Below are positions 11,628 through 47,617 of a stretch of 64,000 nt of DNA, piece by piece. The DNA is from a virus. The stretch's first letter is position 1. Every line of letters begins with the position of its first letter. Under the pieces are notes generated by a model. The model was not told where the DNA came from. It made no database searches and saw nothing but the letters and a program-made list of their open reading frames with translations. The position numbers and the translations under genes were made by a program. The stretch is from the IMG/VR virus record IMGVR_UViG_3300031758_000021, positions 39,152 through 103,151 of that record. One strand, written 5' to 3'.

Positions 11628-12674
11628 ATGGCAACAGTTATTTTAACATCAGCAACAACACGAGGTACCGCAAGAATGGTTACCTCAACTGAAGGGTTTC
11701 CACTAGATTCATGGGAAATAGACTGCCGCGACGGCGCGGGTGGTACGCCTACAGCAGCACAAGGTAATTTAAACGCGGGTGTTAATGTACAGGACACTTA
11801 TGTAAGTGGACTTGATTTAACTACTAGAAGATGCGGTAGATATTTCATGGCTTTTGATACTACTGCTTTAACTGAAACAGCACAATCCGCAATCTTATGG
11901 GTTTTTAAACAAACCACAGGATTAAATAACGGAGATATCATCCCAGTTAAAGCAACTGCCCCAACAACTACAACTAATATTGTTGGTACTGATTATAATG
12001 CTATTTTTCAATATGAAACGGGTTATGCTATGAACGCCAACACCGTTGGCAATGTTGTAGATTATGCAGATAGCGTAACCACAGTTTGGAACAATGGTTG
12101 GAACGCAATTCCGCTGAATGCGGCAGCAGTTGCAGACCTTAACACTTTAGCGCAATTTAAGTTAGCACTTGTTGACTATACATATGATTACTTATACACA
12201 AGCCCCACGCCAGGAGACCCTGGAACAAGTGTTGGTAATGCAATAAACGGAGGTACAAACGCTCCGTATTTAGAAATAGAAACTGGGTTAGGACAATATG
12301 TATTAAGTATTGATCCAAATGCCACATTAAAAGTTAATTCAGTGCCAAAGGCTAACATAAGACTTGTTAATCGTGTAGGTGCTTATACATTTTTTAGAGC
12401 AACAACTGGAGGTGCAAATAGTTCATTGAATCCAGGATGTCAAATACCGTTTCCTGGAACAACTCCTTTATATTGTACAGTTCCATATACAAGTCTTGCA
12501 GTAGGAAATTTTGTTTTTAATGATTATTTACTAACTTCTCCATTTAACGGTGGCGATCTATGGTTTGCTTTGTGGTTTAGAATTGGTGATAACGGTTGGA
12601 TTGATAGGTTATATCAAATATCAGCTACTGGCCAAATCACAAATATTTCTGCAGCTGGTGCTTGTCTATTCTAA
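11628..12674 (+). CDS. putative virion fibre or receptor-binding protein
   Basis: The 348-residue protein has an N-terminal beta-sandwich-like part (about 1-220), resembling DNRLRE or carbohydrate-binding jelly rolls. A second domain rich in Gly, aromatic and Cys residues follows (about 225-348). There is no signal peptide. It lies 14 bp after the giant fibre gene and ends the fibre operon, so it may be a fibre tip or chaperone (inference). Confidence 0.75.
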   Translation: MATVILTSATTRGTARMVTSTEGFPLDSWEIDCRDGAGGTPTAAQGNLNAGVNVQDTYVSGLDLTTRRCGRYFMAFDTTALTETAQSAILWVFKQTTGLNNGDIIPVKATAPTTTTNIVGTDYNAIFQYETGYAMNANTVGNVVDYADSVTTVWNNGWNAIPLNAAAVADLNTLAQFKLALVDYTYDYLYTSPTPGDPGTSVGNAINGGTNAPYLEIETGLGQYVLSIDPNATLKVNSVPKANIRLVNRVGAYTFFRATTGGANSSLNPGCQIPFPGTTPLYCTVPYTSLAVGNFVFNDYLLTSPFNGGDLWFALWFRIGDNGWIDRLYQISATGQITNISAAGACLF

Positions 12675-12714
12675 TAAGAGTAAAACTATTAAGGATTAAC
12701 TTAATATAAATAAC

Positions 12715-13293
12715 ATGACATACTATATACCAACGGGTGAATTTCCGTTATACATTAATCCGTATTTAGTCTTGATGGAAAAAGCAGGATACGCCAGGGA
12801 AGAAGATCCTAATGTAGCAGACTTCTTATTATTGCCAGGAGGTGCTGATATTGGAATGAGAGATGGTCGAGATGAATATGAAATCTATCTTTACAATAAA
12901 TACCGAGAATTAGAAAAACCTATTATAGGAATATGTAGAGGTTTGCAGTTAATGATTTATTTAAATGAAAAAGGACCAGGATTGCTTGAACACATTCCTG
13001 ATTACACAAAAGAAATACTTCACACAACCATCACAGGTGATTGGAAAGGTGAAAGCGCTTGGCACACAACAGAACTTGGATTATTTGTAAATTCGCGACA
13101 TCATCAAGGGATATTTCAAAAAGATGTATCTGAATATAAAGTTATAGATATGACAAGTGATAGAATCGTTGAAGCAATAGAGAATAAAGAAAGAAAAGAA
13201 TTTGCAGTACAGTGGCACCCCGAACATTCGGAAATGAATGACACTCCTGCACAAGAATGGTTTATATGCAAGTTACACAAAATACTCAATTAG
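12715..13293 (+). CDS. class I glutamine amidotransferase (peptidase C26 type)
   Basis: The 192-residue protein has the triad of class I amidotransferases and gamma-glutamyl hydrolases: Cys74 in GICRG, and His168 and Glu170 in QWHPEH. The preceding LLLPGG and the NSRHHQG stretch are typical of the PuuD/peptidase C26 branch, which hydrolyses gamma-glutamyl amides. A phage substrate is not obvious. Folylpolyglutamate, polyamine conjugates and virion-associated cleavage are all possible. It sits right after the fibre genes. Confidence 0.85.
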   Translation: MTYYIPTGEFPLYINPYLVLMEKAGYAREEDPNVADFLLLPGGADIGMRDGRDEYEIYLYNKYRELEKPIIGICRGLQLMIYLNEKGPGLLEHIPDYTKEILHTTITGDWKGESAWHTTELGLFVNSRHHQGIFQKDVSEYKVIDMTSDRIVEAIENKERKEFAVQWHPEHSEMNDTPAQEWFICKLHKILN

Positions 13294-13298
13294 ATGCA

Positions 13299-13607
13299 AT
13301 GAAATTATATACCGTAGATAAACCGATACCAAATTGGGTCCTTGAGCATAAAGAGGATATCTACCGTGATGTATTAATTCAATGTGAACAAAAACTCTTA
13401 AATCCCGACGGTTTTAATCGAGTAGAAGTTGCTTTACTTAAAACTGAAGCAGGAATAACAAAATTCATTATTAAAGATATCATAGGAATACTTGACTCAC
13501 TTGAGCGTTCTATGTTATACTTTGCTGATGTTGAACAATACGAGCTTGCGGCAAGGTCGCGTGATTGTATTGAGAATTGGAAAAAGATAAATACAACATG
13601 CCAATAA
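13299..13607 (+). CDS. small protein with UVR-like helical hairpin
   Basis: I choose ATG 13299, six bases after the upstream stop, over in-frame ATGs at 13257 and 13266 that overlap the amidotransferase gene. The roughly 102-residue product ends in a hairpin (VEQYELAARSRDCI) resembling the UVR motif, as in the protein at 4910. The function is unknown. It overlaps the next gene by 10 bp. Confidence 0.72.
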   Translation: MKLYTVDKPIPNWVLEHKEDIYRDVLIQCEQKLLNPDGFNRVEVALLKTEAGITKFIIKDIIGILDSLERSMLYFADVEQYELAARSRDCIENWKKINTTCQ

Positions 13608-14017
13608 CACTAACAGGAAGAAGTATAAACACCGGTAACGGTTCGCCAATGATACCTATCGTTGCGAACAATCCTGCGTTTAAAGTAGCAATCGTATCAG
13701 TAGACGGAGCGCTGGAAGAAAAACCTAGAGCAAAATCCGATGCAGCTCAACAAGACGCAATTAAAATAGGTGATTACATTTTTGGAGAAACTTTATCTGA
13801 TACTCGAGAAAAAGGTGAAGAAGCCTCAGGAAAAGTATTGGTTGTGTTAAGAAGTGGTCAAGAAGTATCTGGTTATAAAGTACTTGATAAAAATGGTAAA
13901 GAAGTAATCATTGACCCAACTACTGCAGTAAGAGATAATCACAATGGCCAAATGGATGACGTAGTTGAAACATACGTCCTATCATATGAAAATTGGTTAG
14001 CAGAGTCAAAGAAATAA
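13598..14017 (+). CDS. unknown protein, possibly structural
   Basis: I choose ATG 13598 (MPITLTGRSINTG) over the overlapping ATG at 13577. The 139-residue product is mixed alpha/beta with no signal or catalytic motif. It is the last gene before a terminator-promoter element and so closes the structural operon. Confidence 0.75.
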   Translation: MPITLTGRSINTGNGSPMIPIVANNPAFKVAIVSVDGALEEKPRAKSDAAQQDAIKIGDYIFGETLSDTREKGEEASGKVLVVLRSGQEVSGYKVLDKNGKEVIIDPTTAVRDNHNGQMDDVVETYVLSYENWLAESKK

Positions 14018-14020
14018 ATT

Positions 14021-14080
14021 AAGTTGTTAATAACTTTAGTCCTACAAATTTTTATTTGTAGGATTTTTTGTTTAATTTTA
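14021..14080 (+). promoter_or_regulatory. composite terminator-promoter with palindromic site
   Basis: The palindrome AAGTTGTTAATAACTT begins at 14021. The -33 TTTT (14049-14052) lies in the loop region of the terminator hairpin. After a 20-bp spacer that includes the T-tract comes TAATTTTA (14073-14080). It serves the gene at 14102. Confidence 0.6.
14040..14069 (+). terminator. intrinsic terminator overlapping a promoter
   Basis: A 10-bp stem (TCCTACAAAT / ATTTGTAGGA) with a 4-nt loop is followed by six T, a classical intrinsic terminator. It closes the operon that starts with the sigma factor gene. Confidence 0.85.
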
Positions 14081-14101
14081 ACTAATAATTAATTAATCAC
14101 T

Positions 14102-15145
14102 ATGAGAAACCCAGATTCATTATTCAATCATTTAGTTACCTTTATCAATTCTGTTGAAGAAGGGGAAATCTTTCAAGTATCTGATCTTATCAATAAGGTA
14201 GGACCACATGAAACTCCAAGTCGTTGGAAAAATTGGAATAACAATCCTTACTATACAACTAGGAGTTATCTATCACATGTTAAAAACGTAGAGAAATTCA
14301 TAACAAGAATTTCATACGGTAAATACAAAGTCATCAAACATTTTCCTGATTGGTTTGACTTAGGTCATTTATTATTCTTACGTGGTTATGGTGGATATGA
14401 CTGGGTGCAGGATGGCAATTACCGCAGAGAATTTCATAACAATTATAAAGGAATGACCGTTGCGGATATCCTTAATAAACTTGAAGGTAAAACTCCAGCG
14501 CCTGTAAAAAAATCACTTCCTAGATTATATAAAACTAATCGTCATGTATACAATCTTTTTATTAAACATGTGAATGCAAACGGACCTTTATTTTTTAGAA
14601 GTCAAAATGCTTTATACTGTTTTATAGAAGATTTAAAAAATCCTCAGAATAAAAGATACCAAAAGAACGGTGCACCTTACTATGCCGGGGATAAAAACTA
14701 CAGACCTATTATAGCACATTTAATTGCCGATGGTATCATTGAGCGTGGAAGTAATATAAATAATAGGTACACATTTAAAGTTAATCAAATTGCTTTAAAA
14801 GAACGCTACAGTGCCATCTATTTTACTACTGTAGAAAAAATTATTCCTAAAACTGAAAACTATATTGAAGATGTGAATAAAACTAATATCTCAATTTTAG
14901 CCGGAGAGGAATCTGAGTTCAAACCATCTACAGCAATTCCAGGTAATTCACAGTCTACCACAGATTATACTGAAGTACTTAAACTTGCTGCTGCAGAGAT
15001 CCACTTAACAAATGCAATTCGTGCGTTTCAGGCATGTTCTATAACAGACCAACATATGAATGCCCGTCTGTATAATGTGCAAGCCTTGACTCAAGATATT
15101 CGCGCAGCAATCATTGACAAAAAAGAATTCTTAATTAACCGATAA
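14102..15145 (+). CDS. unknown protein, possible DNA-binding repeats
   Basis: The 347-residue product seems to contain two or three winged-helix-sized segments (about 8-80, 130-215 and 285-345) with basic and aromatic residues, and no enzyme motif. It is first in an operon with a UV endonuclease and an AAA ATPase. A DNA-binding or repair role is only an inference. Confidence 0.78.
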   Translation: MRNPDSLFNHLVTFINSVEEGEIFQVSDLINKVGPHETPSRWKNWNNNPYYTTRSYLSHVKNVEKFITRISYGKYKVIKHFPDWFDLGHLLFLRGYGGYDWVQDGNYRREFHNNYKGMTVADILNKLEGKTPAPVKKSLPRLYKTNRHVYNLFIKHVNANGPLFFRSQNALYCFIEDLKNPQNKRYQKNGAPYYAGDKNYRPIIAHLIADGIIERGSNINNRYTFKVNQIALKERYSAIYFTTVEKIIPKTENYIEDVNKTNISILAGEESEFKPSTAIPGNSQSTTDYTEVLKLAAAEIHLTNAIRAFQACSITDQHMNARLYNVQALTQDIRAAIIDKKEFLINR

Positions 15146-36717: not shown

Positions 36718-37068
36718 ATGAGTATTCAAAAATTTGACGCAAGAAATTTAACAATGTTAAGATCTGAACTAGAGGCTGCTATTGCCGCTGTTTGTAACAA
36801 GCACGGAATCGTTGCTCCAACATTAGGAAGAATAAGTTATACTGACACTTCTTTTAATACATCAAAGTTGGTATTCCAAACTAAATCTAAAGTTGACACG
36901 GTATTAAACGCGGATCCTACATCTTTAATCGGAAAACGTTTTAAAGCAAACGGTAGAATCTTTACAATCAAATCTGATTACGGTGATGGAACTTTTGGTG
37001 CTACTACTCAACACGGTAAAGGTTTTAAACTAAGACTTGACCAAATTGCCACCATGATCTCTCTATAA
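36718..37068 (+). CDS. unknown protein
   Basis: The 116-residue protein has a C-terminal beta-rich part (LIGKRFKANGRIFTIKSDYG) resembling a small SH3- or KOW-like barrel. Its stop overlaps the next start (TAATG). Confidence 0.72.
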   Translation: MSIQKFDARNLTMLRSELEAAIAAVCNKHGIVAPTLGRISYTDTSFNTSKLVFQTKSKVDTVLNADPTSLIGKRFKANGRIFTIKSDYGDGTFGATTQHGKGFKLRLDQIATMISL

Positions 37069-37412
37069 TGGATAAGTCAATCTATACGTTCCCTCCGCAT
37101 AATCCATTTGGTATTCATTTCGGAATCGTAAAAACTCTATCAGGAACATATGTATGCCCGGGTTGGTATCCTGTTCCTGATGGAACTACTCGTGACCAGA
37201 TTCGTTTTGACATGACCGCTGTTATCGAAAAACCTAAAGAAGTGGTTCTAGAGTCAGAGATTAAACGCTGGGAAGTTCCGGGTTCTAAACCTGGAGTTTT
37301 ATACACAATCCTTCGTGGATTAGAGGATGACTTTACTTGTTCGTGCCCGGCATTCTCTTTTCGTCGTGGTGATTGTAAACATATCAAAGGAATTAAAGAC
37401 AGTTTAAAATAA
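37068..37412 (+). CDS. SWIM zinc-finger protein
   Basis: The 114-residue protein carries a C-terminal SWIM motif CSCPAFSFRRGDCKH (Cys91, Cys93, Cys103, His105), a zinc-binding module that contacts DNA or protein. Nothing enzymatic is seen. It is coupled to the gene before it. Confidence 0.85.
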   Translation: MDKSIYTFPPHNPFGIHFGIVKTLSGTYVCPGWYPVPDGTTRDQIRFDMTAVIEKPKEVVLESEIKRWEVPGSKPGVLYTILRGLEDDFTCSCPAFSFRRGDCKHIKGIKDSLK

Positions 37413-37522: not shown

Positions 37523-37801
37523 ATGGAAACACTTGAAGATAAAGCAATACGCTTAGCCGCCCAGGCTGCCGCTGAAGAACAATTCATTTACAAGATATAT
37601 ACTTACGATGCTTATGGCAGTGTTCTTGTAAAACTATTAGGGCGTGACCGTACTTTTAAATCTATGCAAGCCGTTAAGGATTTCTTATACGGGGAAAAAG
37701 CCGGTAAGAACATTAAAAATGCAATGAAATACAAACAGCTGGTGATCTGCCAAAAATCAGACCGCTGGAGAATCGTGGAAATTATTGAACCAACTATATG
37801 A
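37523..37801 (+). CDS. unknown protein
   Basis: The 92-residue mixed alpha/beta protein lies after a 110-bp gap without a recognisable consensus promoter. It overlaps the next gene by 4 bp. Confidence 0.7.
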   Translation: METLEDKAIRLAAQAAAEEQFIYKIYTYDAYGSVLVKLLGRDRTFKSMQAVKDFLYGEKAGKNIKNAMKYKQLVICQKSDRWRIVEIIEPTI

Positions 37802-38280
37802 AAACTCTTATCTTAATACTTCTGTGCCTGACGGCAAATCTTCAGGCACAGATAAAGATAGACAAAGGCGGTGACCACTGGGACCGCGATGTTGAACTAG
37901 CATTAGACCGTATTTATGAAACTGATACCGTTGCTTACAATTTTGTTTATGAAAACGTTAGCCGTGTATCGATGTGGAACGGTGATCATTCTACTTCTGA
38001 AGGTGTAAGAGGTGGTAAAGGAACAATCATAATTGCCGCCAAAGATTTTGAACTGTGTTCAATTAACAACATTGCATGCGTCTTGGTTCACGAGGCATAT
38101 CACTTAATGATTTTCCGTAAACTTGGACGCCACACACAACCCTGTTCTGAAGAGATATCCGCTTATAAAACCGAGCTTGACTTTATTCTTAAACTTTCTG
38201 ACGCAGAAGCATTCCTCTACAAAAATGCTTTGACACAAATCAAGCACTACACTGAACAGCATCGTTTAGGTTGTAGATGA
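37798..38280 (+). CDS. secreted HExxH metallopeptidase-like protein
   Basis: The 160-residue protein has a cleavable signal peptide (about 1-18, ending LQAQ). Its zinc-site motif is VLVHEAYHL (HExxH at 98-102), with a later ISAYKTELDF whose Glu could be the third ligand. It may act in the periplasm or at the cell surface, for example on host proteins or during lysis. The substrate is unknown. Confidence 0.8.
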   Translation: MKTLILILLCLTANLQAQIKIDKGGDHWDRDVELALDRIYETDTVAYNFVYENVSRVSMWNGDHSTSEGVRGGKGTIIIAAKDFELCSINNIACVLVHEAYHLMIFRKLGRHTQPCSEEISAYKTELDFILKLSDAEAFLYKNALTQIKHYTEQHRLGCR

Positions 38281-38326: not shown

Positions 38327-38572
38327 ATGAAAGGTAAAATAATCAAAATATTACAGTACTTGTTAGGAGGAATAGGTTTTATAGTTGTATTACCTTTTGC
38401 GCTTCTATATTTTATTGCAACAATGTTTTGGGTGTTTTTTGGAACAACGCTCATAGCATTTATTACCATAATGTTATTAGGTGGGACCGACGAACAATGT
38501 ATAACATACGCTCCTGCACTTGGATTGCTAATCTCCATAATAAAGAAATTTCAAGAAGTATCTAAAAAATAA
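38327..38572 (+). CDS. small membrane protein
   Basis: The 81-residue protein has two long hydrophobic segments (about 8-31 and 34-50) and is the last gene before the gene-free region. Function unknown. Confidence 0.65.
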   Translation: MKGKIIKILQYLLGGIGFIVVLPFALLYFIATMFWVFFGTTLIAFITIMLLGGTDEQCITYAPALGLLISIIKKFQEVSKK

Positions 38573-38618
38573 CAAATGCTTACAGATTTGGTAGTCCTTG
38601 ACCACTAAACCCGGATCG

Positions 38619-38640
38619 GGGAGCTTAGGCTCCCTCTTCT
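38619..38640 (+). terminator. hairpin terminator
   Basis: Stem GGGAGC / GCTCCC with loop TTAG is followed by TCTTCT and more pyrimidines. It probably ends the transcript from upstream. Confidence 0.6.
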
Positions 38641-39447
38641 TTTCCCAATTTCTACCCAAAGCATTTCTCGGAGTCCGTGTTAGGACATTCCGGCCCGTGC
38701 GACTTTTCTGCAGATCCCCGGCACAGTATAAGTTAAAGAGACCCGTCAGATCTTCCTCAAGTAGGTCCCAAAGTAGTTCTTTAAGATCTTCTTACTCATC
38801 GGGATAGTGCAAAGATAATGGGATGATCCCACTCTCCTTATCACTATTAATTACTCTAACTATAATAAAGTCTCATATGTACAATAAAGCCGCTCCCTTT
38901 ATCAGCAATTTTTCAATTTACCATTTATTACCAATAGTAAATAGTAAACTCAAACAAGTTTGAAGTACAACTAATAGTAGTACAACCAATATTACCATAA
39001 TCAGTAATAACATACAATATTACCAATATCCGTAATAGCCACTAATAGGGTACTAATAGAATACTACTGCATAGGGAGGAATCTGTAGATCTGTTTCTCA
39101 GATCACAGGGTGAATCTGTAGAACTAGCTGCGTTCGCAACTGGTGTTCACATCACTCCCGGAACGGGATATCCCAAATTCCTGGGTACAACTGAAAAGAT
39201 GTTTTTGGCCTCCAGAAAAAATCTCAGAAAATTTTTTTAACTATGGGAAATCTGCACAAGTTTTAAATATGCAATATATGGGATAGAAGTCGACTGAGAA
39301 GAAACTGATGTAGAGACTGCTAAATGTACCGGAGCATTTTAAGAGCTTCTGCTATGCCCGGACTTTCATTTCTGGCGATTTATAATATATAGTCATTTCT
39401 AAAAGACCAAATTACATAAATGCAAAATTGTGATCTGTTGATAATGA

Positions 39448-39562
39448 CTACCACTAAAGCGCTACCGCCACTCAGAACCACTGCTACTACCACCGCTACT
39501 ACCACTACTCGGGTAGTCTACCACCACTACTACCACCGCTACTACTGCCACTACCACCACTA
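39448..39562 (+). repeat. TACCAC/TACCGC triplet-like tract
   Basis: About 115 bp are built from ACTACCACC-like triplets with variation. The strand is C/A/T-rich. No start codon or leader is present, so it is unlikely to be coding. Confidence 0.7.
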
Positions 39563-39743
39563 GCTACTCTCGTATAGGGTATAATAGTGATTGTAGGGTC
39601 TATACTATGCCATATATGGTCTCTATAGCGCTCGATGGCATGGCTCTACAGGGTCTATATGGCTCTACAAGGTCTATTTTGGCGCTATTTGTGTCTATTT
39701 TGGGTCTATTTTGGCTCTATACGGGTCTATTTTGGCTCTATAT

Positions 39744-39951
39744 GGGTCTATTCTATGCCTTATGGCGCTATTTGGGTCTATTTTGTGTCTTTTTTGGGTC
39801 ATTTTAGAGCCATTTGATACGGTATAGTGCTCTAAATGGCACTATATAGGGTCTATACGGGTCTATTCTATGCCTTATGGCGCTCAATAGTGCTCTAAAT
39901 GGCACTATTTGTGTCTTTTTTGGGTCATTTTAGAGCCATTTGATACGGTAT
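39744..39951 (+). repeat. nested long direct repeats
   Basis: A 26-bp unit recurs at 39744-39769 and 39859-39884. A 22-bp inverted-repeat unit (ATAGTGC...GCACTAT) recurs at 39824-39845 and 39887-39908. A 44-bp unit recurs exactly at 39782-39825 and 39908-39951. The order is shuffled between copies, pointing to repeated local rearrangement. Confidence 0.85.
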
Positions 39952-39955
39952 GGCT

Positions 39956-40005
39956 CTATTGGCGGCCAAATCTAGTGGTTATATGGGACATTTGGCCGCC
40001 AATAG
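39956..40005 (+). repeat. strong inverted repeat, 16-bp stem
   Basis: CTATTGGCGGCCAAAT (39956-39971) and its perfect reverse complement (39990-40005) flank an 18-nt loop. The GGCGGCC core is unusually GC-rich for this genome. Confidence 0.88.
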
Positions 40006-40064
40006 GGACTGATATAGAGCCCGCTATACGGGAATATCGCTAAAATGACGATTTTTAGGCAAAA

Positions 40065-40121
40065 TTTAACACAAATTTAACACTATTTATTTGCTTGGTA
40101 TGAAACTATTGGTTAATTTTA
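40065..40121 (+). promoter_or_regulatory. TTTAACA-type promoter
   Basis: TTTAACA at 40065 and 40076; TTTG 40090-40093, 20-bp spacer, TAATTTTA 40114-40121. It marks the end of the gene-free region. Confidence 0.7.
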
Positions 40122-40148
40122 ACTATCAATTTAAAACTACGCTATATA

Positions 40149-40508
40149 ATGGACGAATTAAACTGCACAATTACGGATCTTGAAATCGATGCTTTAAAAG
40201 CGATCACATATTCTGACTTTTATGAGAACGGTCGGGAATCTGTAGTATGGGATTATTCTGTATACGATGCTTGTGATATACCATCACGTTCGCGAGGAGG
40301 AGTATTTGCCTCTTTATCGACTAAAGGGATAATCACGATTTATGAAGGTGAGAAAAAGTTCATTATCAACCCCGATGGTACCAAGACCCGAAACCAATGG
40401 TGGTCGCAGGATGGTTTAAACTTTGGAACCATGTGTATAACACCGGAGGGATATGCCTTATTGGACAAACTACAACTAATTGACGAAAACGGATTTTTCA
40501 TTAAATAA
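40149..40508 (+). CDS. unknown protein
   Basis: The 119-residue protein is first after the repeat region. Its codons are more GC-rich than those of genes before 38 kb. No family is recognised. Confidence 0.72.
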   Translation: MDELNCTITDLEIDALKAITYSDFYENGRESVVWDYSVYDACDIPSRSRGGVFASLSTKGIITIYEGEKKFIINPDGTKTRNQWWSQDGLNFGTMCITPEGYALLDKLQLIDENGFFIK

Positions 40509-42567: not shown

Positions 42568-42871
42568 CTATTCAACTTCCGTTTTTATATACAGTATCGA
42601 AGTCGATTTGTATTGGAGGTTACCGGGGAAGCGGTACCGGGAGGGATCTTGGTACCGCGGTAGTCGGTTCTCAGGAGTTAGAAAACGGTACTCCAGATAC
42701 GCGAACACGATTAGTAACGGTACAGTACATTCAGAAAGTTACATTTATATACCATATATAAGATAATCTAAAGGACACAAAAAGAGTTTCGGTTTTTAAG
42801 TGTTTTTAACATTTGATTCCTTTAGAAGTATTCGCGAGATTAACAGATTAATAGTAGAACCAGGAACCGTA
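42568..42871 (+). other. gap with GGTACCG repeats and no clear gene
   Basis: About 300 bp include several GGTACCG-type units (42640-42660) and an AT-rich ATATACCATATATAAG stretch near 42750. A frame from 42549 crosses part of it but reads as low-quality sequence. The gap could hold a promoter for the next gene. Confidence 0.5.
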
Positions 42872-43270
42872 ATGGAAAAGTTGAAAAGTGTACCCGTGAA
42901 ACGGAGTGCCTTACCGCCACTATCAAAGAAGAATCGGGAGAGAGTGTACCGCGTACAGCGAGGACTCTCAGTTGGCTCAGAGGAGCTTTATAAGGCTGTA
43001 TTAGAGCGGAGCGAAATGAGTACTGCGGAGGCTAAATTGATTACTGATGAGCATAGTCTACTATTCAAGAGTATATGGCGTTATTGGTTGTATACGGATA
43101 GTCGATTGAATATATTGGATAGTATGCGTTATAGTAGTTTATTAAGTTGGCTAGTATTTTTTGTTTTTATACTACCTATATGGATATGGAATAGTATCAA
43201 GAGGTGGGAACTTTTGGGGTGGGTGAAACGGATCGTGAGAGATCGACTCGGCAGGAAGAATGTAGAATAA
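42872..43270 (+). CDS. membrane protein of unknown function
   Basis: I choose ATG 42872. An in-frame GTG at 42800 lies in the gap. The 132-residue product has a basic N-terminal part, one hydrophobic stretch (about 88-107), and a basic C-terminus. Codon use is GC-rich compared with the rest of the window. Confidence 0.65.
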   Translation: MEKLKSVPVKRSALPPLSKKNRERVYRVQRGLSVGSEELYKAVLERSEMSTAEAKLITDEHSLLFKSIWRYWLYTDSRLNILDSMRYSSLLSWLVFFVFILPIWIWNSIKRWELLGWVKRIVRDRLGRKNVE

Positions 43271-43290
43271 CAAATAAAAATTTTAGAGAT

Positions 43291-43533
43291 ATGAGCAAAG
43301 AATTTAAGGTCGTCATTGCACAAGATGAGAATGATACGGTTACGATTAGCGTAAGTTCCACAGGTTGGAATGATTACGAATTGGCAGGCATACAAGCCAA
43401 GTTGCCGAAGATAGTGGAAGATGCACTGCAGGAACAACATGCGGTGGTAGAGGAGGAAAAACGCAAGTGCTACTGTGGGCATACCACGACTTGTGAGTGC
43501 GAACCGATGAGAGATTCGAGTGATGAAGAGTAA
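43291..43533 (+). CDS. small protein with Cys cluster
   Basis: I choose ATG 43291. The 80-residue protein has a C-terminal CYCGHTTTCEC cluster that may bind zinc. It overlaps the next gene by 11 bp. Confidence 0.68.
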   Translation: MSKEFKVVIAQDENDTVTISVSSTGWNDYELAGIQAKLPKIVEDALQEQHAVVEEEKRKCYCGHTTTCECEPMRDSSDEE

Positions 43534-43675
43534 GGTCTTTTATACCAATCCCTATAACTTACAAGGTGAGTTGGATAAGTGGTTAGCAGAGGTCAGTTTT
43601 GATGTGGAGATCATGAGTATGACGCAGTCTGAATGTAAAGATTATGTGCTATTAACTATTCTGTATCGAGATTAA
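43523..43675 (+). CDS. small unknown protein
   Basis: This 50-residue frame overlaps the previous gene and ends just before a promoter. Function unknown. Confidence 0.58.
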   Translation: MKSKVFYTNPYNLQGELDKWLAEVSFDVEIMSMTQSECKDYVLLTILYRD

Positions 43676-43677
43676 AG

Positions 43678-43734
43678 TTTAACAAAAGTTTAACATAATT
43701 TGTTTGCTTGGCTTCTTGTTTTTGGTTAAATTTA
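43678..43734 (+). promoter_or_regulatory. TTTAACA-type promoter
   Basis: TTTAACA at 43678 and 43689; TTTG 43703-43706, 20-bp spacer, TAAATTTA 43727-43734. Confidence 0.7.
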
Positions 43735-43757
43735 TACTATAATTAAAAAACAACAAT

Positions 43758-47293: not shown

Positions 47294-47617
47294 ATGAGAA
47301 AACGCCGTTCCGACAGAAATCATATCATTTACAAAATTGACAATACTTGTACTGGTGATTTCTATATAGGAGTAACTGTTTTAAGAGGCAAGGCTTATCT
47401 TGGGTCCATTAAATTGCGATTGAAACAACATATCAGTCGAGCACAAACTCAAGATCTTCAATGGGCGCTATGCGAATCTATTCGCACTTATGGACCGCAA
47501 TCATTTAGCATTTCAATGTTAGAGATCGTCCGCGGAAAGCGACCAGCTCATTCTCGAGAAACAGAACTTATAAAGGAAATGCAACCTCGTTTAAACACAA
47601 CATCAGTAAACATTTAA
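47294..47617 (+). CDS. GIY-YIG nuclease
   Basis: The 107-residue protein has HIIYKIDN and FYIGVTV at the positions of GIY and YIG, then the Arg/His motif RLKQHISRA and a late Glu in SRETELIKEMQPRLNT. It is a single-domain nuclease of the SegA-like or UvrC-type family without a DNA-binding tail. It is not inside another gene, so it is not obviously a homing endonuclease. Confidence 0.85.
   Translation: MRKRRSDRNHIIYKIDNTCTGDFYIGVTVLRGKAYLGSIKLRLKQHISRAQTQDLQWALCESIRTYGPQSFSISMLEIVRGKRPAHSRETELIKEMQPRLNTTSVNI

Follow-up and report, generated by a model that had tools for sequence, protein, structure and literature searches.

The locus and its neighbours

The DNA analysed here, referred to as the window, is a stretch of 64,000 nucleotides that corresponds to positions 39152-103151 of an IMG/VR virus record of 103,151 bp. 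All coordinates are window positions, and the element described below, together with its features, is known from one contig. Codon-score gene calling places a gene-free gap of 1,576 bp at 38573-40148, ending directly before the next gene, and this gap is the longest in the whole 103-kb record. A preliminary description of this DNA had the coordinates and the rank of the gap right, save that its true end lies at 40148. The next apparent gap (42568-43757, 1,190 bp) contains atypical ORFs, one of which has a homologue in the related phage G002, and leaves only about 230 bp clearly free of genes; a short GC-rich non-coding stretch with several GGTACC/GGTACCG words lies upstream of these ORFs, at 42568-42800. 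The remaining gaps in the record are all shorter than 500 bp, with a median of about 30 bp.

None of the ORFs within the gap passes the codon score, the chance ORFs have no Pfam match, and a six-frame search for gene remnants against the relatives matched only at a promoter-like repeat. The suggestion that the region might encode conserved proteins in relatives, raised in the preliminary description as grounds for rejecting its view, was examined, and no such proteins were found. The region encodes no recognisable protein and would be a cis-acting DNA element of the phage, not a gene. The genes flanking it run in the same direction on both sides. The same description had the gap dividing AT-rich genes from a GC-richer block; the block instead extends over about 37-46 kb, with the gap inside it.

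The gap, its two neighbours and the features discussed below are as follows.

38327..38572, strand +: left neighbour, 81-aa ORF, probable small membrane protein (judged from its sequence)
38573..38860: segment A, GC-richer (45.5%) unique sequence, fold z -0.98
38861..39070: segment B, AT-rich (28.6% GC), small repeats ACTAATAG, CAATATTACCA and NGTAATA
39071..39440: segment C, unique non-coding sequence, fold z -0.78
39441..39570, strand +: segment D, degenerate ACC/ACT/GCT triplet tract, C over G (GC skew -0.58)
39594..39960, strand +: segment E, repeat array, 21 direct units of about 10.5 bp each
39744..39769, strand +: block a, 26 bp, exact copy at 39859..39884
39782..39825, strand +: block c, 44 bp, exact copy at 39908..39951
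39824..39845, strand +: block b, 22 bp, with the dyad ATAGTGC/GCACTAT, exact copy at 39887..39908
39956..40005: perfect palindrome, 16-bp arms CTATTGGCGGCCAAAT and ATTTGGCCGCCAATAG, 18-nt loop
40061..40134, strand +: promoter-like repeat copy at the right edge of the gap, 1 of 20 copies in the record
40149..40508, strand +: right neighbour, 119-aa protein, orthologues (71, 63 and 45%) in other phage contigs

The left neighbour has no PHROG or Pfam match. Further upstream, a 160-aa protein (37798-38280) has a VHEAYHLM motif that hints at a zinc metallopeptidase, a 40% homologue in G008 and no family match in PHROGs or Pfam, and a SWIM zinc-finger protein (37068-37412) scores above the Pfam cut-off. 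A GIY-YIG-like protein at 47294-47617 falls slightly below that cut-off.

The phage and its relatives

By its sequence, the source is a T4-related jumbo-type phage, and Bacteroidota are probably its hosts. The T4 type is indicated by a gp23-like major capsid protein in the left part of the record, which is 49% identical to that of an uncultured 462-kb phage and whose next matches are the Lak phages of Prevotella. The same part also holds ORFs that we read as characteristic of the tail sheath and replication core of T4-type phages. Within the window, genes encode RNA ligases, thymidylate synthase and an endonuclease as well as collagen-like tail fibres. Over 16.4 kb, the record (G000) is matched at 100% identity by a second contig (G004), which ends at window position 36905, short of the gap, and extends about 30 kb past the other end of the record, and the phage genome is therefore larger than 133 kb. 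Given this incompleteness, a gene for an initiator, a terminase or a filament protein may lie outside the sequence examined.

Relatives with shuffled gene order include G002 (294 kb), G008 (254 kb) and the pair L143 and L144 (430-434 kb), and by the gene to the right of the gap the nearest named phages are Sphingomonas phage PAU and Chryseobacterium phage MA9V-1. No tRNA genes were found in the window or in the record as a whole, and the far part of G004 and the contig G005 are likewise without them. Arrays of 25-35 tRNA genes each occur in the related phages G002 (63592-71268), G006, G007 and G010; in G006 and G010 they include a tRNA predicted to have a CUA anticodon.

Organisation of the gap

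The preliminary description had the gap packed with repeats. Repeated 10-mers indeed cover 250 of its positions, far above 200 dinucleotide shuffles (mean 3.7, maximum 12), but they are dense only in the right-hand 600 bp or so, which hold the triplet tract, the array and the palindrome; 39571-40064 alone accounts for 207 such positions, against a mean of 1.0 and a maximum of 10 in shuffles. The few small repeats of segment B lie outside this dense part, and segments A and C (38573-38860 and 39071-39440) are essentially without repeats and fold no better than shuffles. A hairpin resembling a terminator (GGGGAGCTTAGGCTCCCT then CTTCTTTT) lies in segment A at 38618-38635. A decayed tRNA array was considered for this segment and dropped, given that nothing appeared in Rfam at E 10 and that relaxed ARAGORN output amounted to noise. 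Segment B could possibly serve as an unwinding element; GC as low as its own is found in 5.5% of the contig's 200-bp windows.

At the right-hand end, the hairpin and the triplet tract are as the preliminary description had them. The palindrome arms (39956-39971 and 39990-40005) are complementary at 16 of 16 positions, with a single-stranded DNA fold z of -5.7, and no T run follows. A promoter segment of 21% GC (40065-40148) begins 60 bp past the palindrome and carries a copy of the phage's promoter-like repeat, TTTAACAAAAATTTAACATTnAGAATTTGCTTTGnTTnnnTATTTTGGTTAATTTTAACTATCAAT, of about 60-90 bp. All 20 copies, which range from -22207 to 55027, lie on the + strand (positions include 22641, 23470, 32279, 34366, 36639, 40073, 41081 and 48564). 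G005 also has this repeat, and G002 shows a weaker match to it.

A helically phased repeat array

The units of segment E share the consensus TGG(G/C)TCTATWY and comprise the 21 direct copies and three inverted ones, at 39803, 39929 and 40013. A matrix scan places these 24 matches within about 430 bp and gives an outside rate of 1.05 per kb; since the matrix was trained on the array units, only that outside rate and the repeat shuffle test are independent. The iteron-like GGTCTAT word singled out earlier occurs nine times. The shuffled direct repeats of 20-44 bp proved to be exact repeats of 44, 26, 22 and 20 bp, the last at 39702/39723, with the larger blocks in the order a-c-b-a-b-c.

Spacings between units alternate between 10 and 11 bp, and most of the long gaps are near-multiples of one helical turn. 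The best period is 10.45 bp with a Rayleigh R of 0.865, compared with 0.69 for randomly placed units (99.9th percentile) and 0.81 for spacings jittered by up to 3 bp. Duplication of a 21-bp unit pair would by itself preserve such a phase, even without selection. TTT, GG and TAT within the array all show period peaks at 10.4-10.5 bp, and bent DNA would be expected to show such a shared period of T-tracts and GG steps.

The curvature predicted for the array is in keeping with this expectation. Across about 1.78 Mb of this and related phages, the curvature maximum sits inside the array under two wedge models: a fuller one, with dinucleotide parameters after the Bolshoy set, and an A-tract-only one, which gives the same result. 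The array reaches a z of 6.5-8.4 in the fuller model, and its curvature of 14.7 compares with a maximum of 8.9 among 500 dinucleotide shuffles. As modelled, the array is intrinsically bent, with its repeats on a single face, and has the look of a structure made for wrapping protein. The strongest point is a structural one, namely that the helical phase has been kept despite block shuffling, together with the highest predicted curvature in the phage group.

Search for similar elements

No homologue of the array was found in 50,697 annotated phages or 72,556 plasmids, and the unit patterns returned only chance tandems from IMG/VR and GTDB. The related contigs and the two named phages examined contain no comparable array, the parts of PAU and MA9V-1 that were read have no comparable gap, and in L004, L147 and L148 the DNA upstream of the gene orthologous to 40149 has no such repeats. 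The palindrome pattern has no match in IMG/VR. Within the data searched, the array is thus an orphan specific to this phage lineage.

Several candidates for a shared element were set aside. A triple-unit pattern occurred in 19 GTDB contigs and five viral stretches, nearly all of them short intergenic tandems of GGGTCTAT; among 396 Bacteroidota genomes the seed genome alone matched, and a permuted control matched in one too, so the GGGTCTAT tandems in bacteria are taken as chance. Of the earlier unit-pattern matches, the one inspected (L047) is coding by chance. Windows in relatives that looked alike by score, being repeat-rich or long and non-coding, turned out to be GOLLD RNA, tRNA clusters or AT-rich spacers.

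These comparisons brought other RNAs to light. GOLLD RNA occurs in L121 (5124-5530, strand -, 325 bits) and L115 (13833-14237, strand -, 314 bits), and L115 also encodes a phage tmRNA at 13244-13664. The 430-kb relatives share a conserved non-coding element (L143, about 12396-13062; L144, about 13540-14570) that is 88-89% identical over about 820 nt, has complementary ends GCAGTTTTTAT...ATAAAACTGC and encloses a tRNA-like part, with an insert of about 370 nt bearing tRNA-like sequences in L144. Rfam gives tRNA pieces and no large RNA family for it, and the single-sequence fold z is -2.0; it is possibly a new large phage RNA.

Comparison with known systems and a tentative origin

The preliminary description had offered a replication origin, a packaging or recombination site, or an abundant structured RNA. 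The phasing and the predicted curvature favour an element that acts as DNA and binds protein, as an origin or a packaging site would; the RNA proposal, which has no Rfam match, is the weaker. The best reading by analogy would be an iteron-type replication origin, held tentatively and at less than even confidence because no initiator, clear adjacent unwinding element, clear skew switch or conservation was found. It is preferred given the T4-type precedent and the AT-rich sequence and promoter-like repeat that adjoin the array.

T4 oriE would be the nearest comparable element within the phage's own group. It contains evenly spaced short direct repeats, whose link with origin activity is not established, and oriE, oriF and oriG adjoin transcription divergences (PMC3016281). 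What the two loci share is a run of short, regularly spaced direct repeats within a T4-type phage; the oriE repeats, however, are 12 nt long, common to close relatives and near a transcription divergence, whereas the present array has some 24 units of 10.5 bp, is strongly curved by prediction, has no divergence nearby and is shared by no relative examined. Iteron origins of lambda and plasmids combine direct repeats, intrinsic bending by A-tracts and AT-rich DNA nearby (PMC7466680, PMC4980987). Direct repeats at whole-turn spacing (21 units, 10.45 bp) are found here, bending of the lambda type at the repeats is predicted by both wedge models, and AT-rich DNA lies in the neighbourhood, in segment B, 520 bp off, and in the promoter segment. 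In contrast to those origins, the units are about half as long, such that two of them make an iteron-size repeat of 21 bp, the copies are many more, no initiator gene is recognised, and no adjacent unwinding element is established.

Mechanistically, the working part would be the intrinsically curved array, in which each helical turn presents a short site, about 24 in all, towards the same face of the DNA. These sites would most likely be bound head to tail by a phage protein, which could wrap the curved segment of about 400 bp into a nucleoprotein complex. Such a complex may strain the neighbouring DNA so that the AT-rich promoter sequence or segment B opens, and synthesis might then be primed by the promoter transcript or by a primase; the palindrome could act as a start site on single strands or in the handling of forks. 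Protein binding, wrapping, melting and initiation at the array are all steps that we infer.

PHROGs and Pfam recognised no replication initiator among the neighbouring genes, though one of an unrecognised kind is possible there. The right-neighbour protein was considered as the binder of the array and rejected: its AlphaFold model was unusable (pLDDT 37) owing to too few relatives, and its orthologues lack arrays. The skew profile called for by the preliminary description gave no clear origin-like switch at the gap in GC or third-position (GC3) skew, and no DnaA boxes were found. An essential origin would, moreover, have had to evolve extremely fast, since the relatives examined and the orthologues of the downstream gene are without the array.

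Alternative explanations

Somewhat less probable than the origin, and thus doubtful, is a broader proposal: a dedicated, curved array of about 24 units with one site per turn, acting as an orphan nucleoprotein scaffold (for origin, segregation or packaging) and read by an unrecognised phage protein family. A packaging-initiation (pac) site would have a ring-shaped small terminase select the bent segment and the large terminase cut nearby, by analogy with the SPP1-type small terminase, which has been proposed to select intrinsically bent pac DNA by a ring of weak HTHs (PMC4737164). The bend, predicted here, is the common feature, and a strongly curved segment of about 400 bp phased at 10.5 bp suits such wrapping; against it, PHROGs and Pfam recognised no terminase-like gene near the array among the flanking genes tested, and the array is unique to this phage. 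T4-type phages are not known to rely on a pac site of this kind. A pac site is quite unlikely here. For a centromere-like site of the parC/tubC kind, which would serve partition or positioning of phage DNA, the likeness lies in the architecture, as ParR binds arrays of about 10-bp direct repeats and wraps DNA (PMC5016525) and the unit size and number here match. However, no adjacent partition operon is recognised and no tubulin-family gene was found in the record and six related records, by a search that worked in 13 of 14 control genomes; this negative covers the tubulin family, the ParM search having had no positive control and the phage genome being incomplete. A centromere would be the least probable of the functions considered, and is highly unlikely.

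Regulation is improbable, although slightly more credible than packaging. The array would here control the promoter at 40073, and a regulator from phage or host, or else the bend as such, would tune transcription of the GC-richer gene block that follows; segment E does end shortly upstream of one of the 20 promoter-like repeats. Regulators that bind head to tail at one site per helical turn exist, as in BldC (PMC5859096), whose operators share the one-unit-per-turn design but comprise two to four units against about 24 here; two dozen sites are many for an operator, no array cluster lies near the other 19 promoter-like copies, and the downstream-gene orthologues have just a short promoter region upstream. 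A structured, abundant non-coding RNA transcribed from the + strand would find support in the folding of 39560-40060 (z -6.7 against shuffles), in six terminator-like sites against 1.2 expected, and in the large RNAs, such as GOLLD, carried by relatives. The fold signal is nevertheless confined to the repeat part, where it follows from the repeats and their inverted copies, such sequences being bound to fold well; elsewhere the gap shows no unusual structure, and the one strong promoter-like copy sits downstream of the region. With no Rfam match either, this proposal is very unlikely. Finally, the region could be a neutral or slowly decaying spacer in a site of gene turnover, where slippage and recombination expanded a short repeat with no selected function. 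The tandem and shuffled block duplications, the lack of conservation in any relative, the background rate of short GGGTCTAT tandems in unrelated bacteria and the absence of anything above chance in segments A and C all agree with this. Yet phages seldom carry as much as 1.6 kb of idle DNA, and the median gap here is about 30 bp; the 10.45-bp phase persists despite shuffling and divergence (though pair duplication would preserve it), and no other part of the 1.78 Mb is predicted to be as curved. A spacer is about as improbable as the regulatory array.

Significance

Replication start in large T4-related phages is poorly known, and for the tentatively preferred origin the 400-bp element offers a compact and sharply defined candidate sequence. 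It likewise gives a testable sequence for an origin, packaging or scaffold function in the jumbo-type phages of Bacteroidota.
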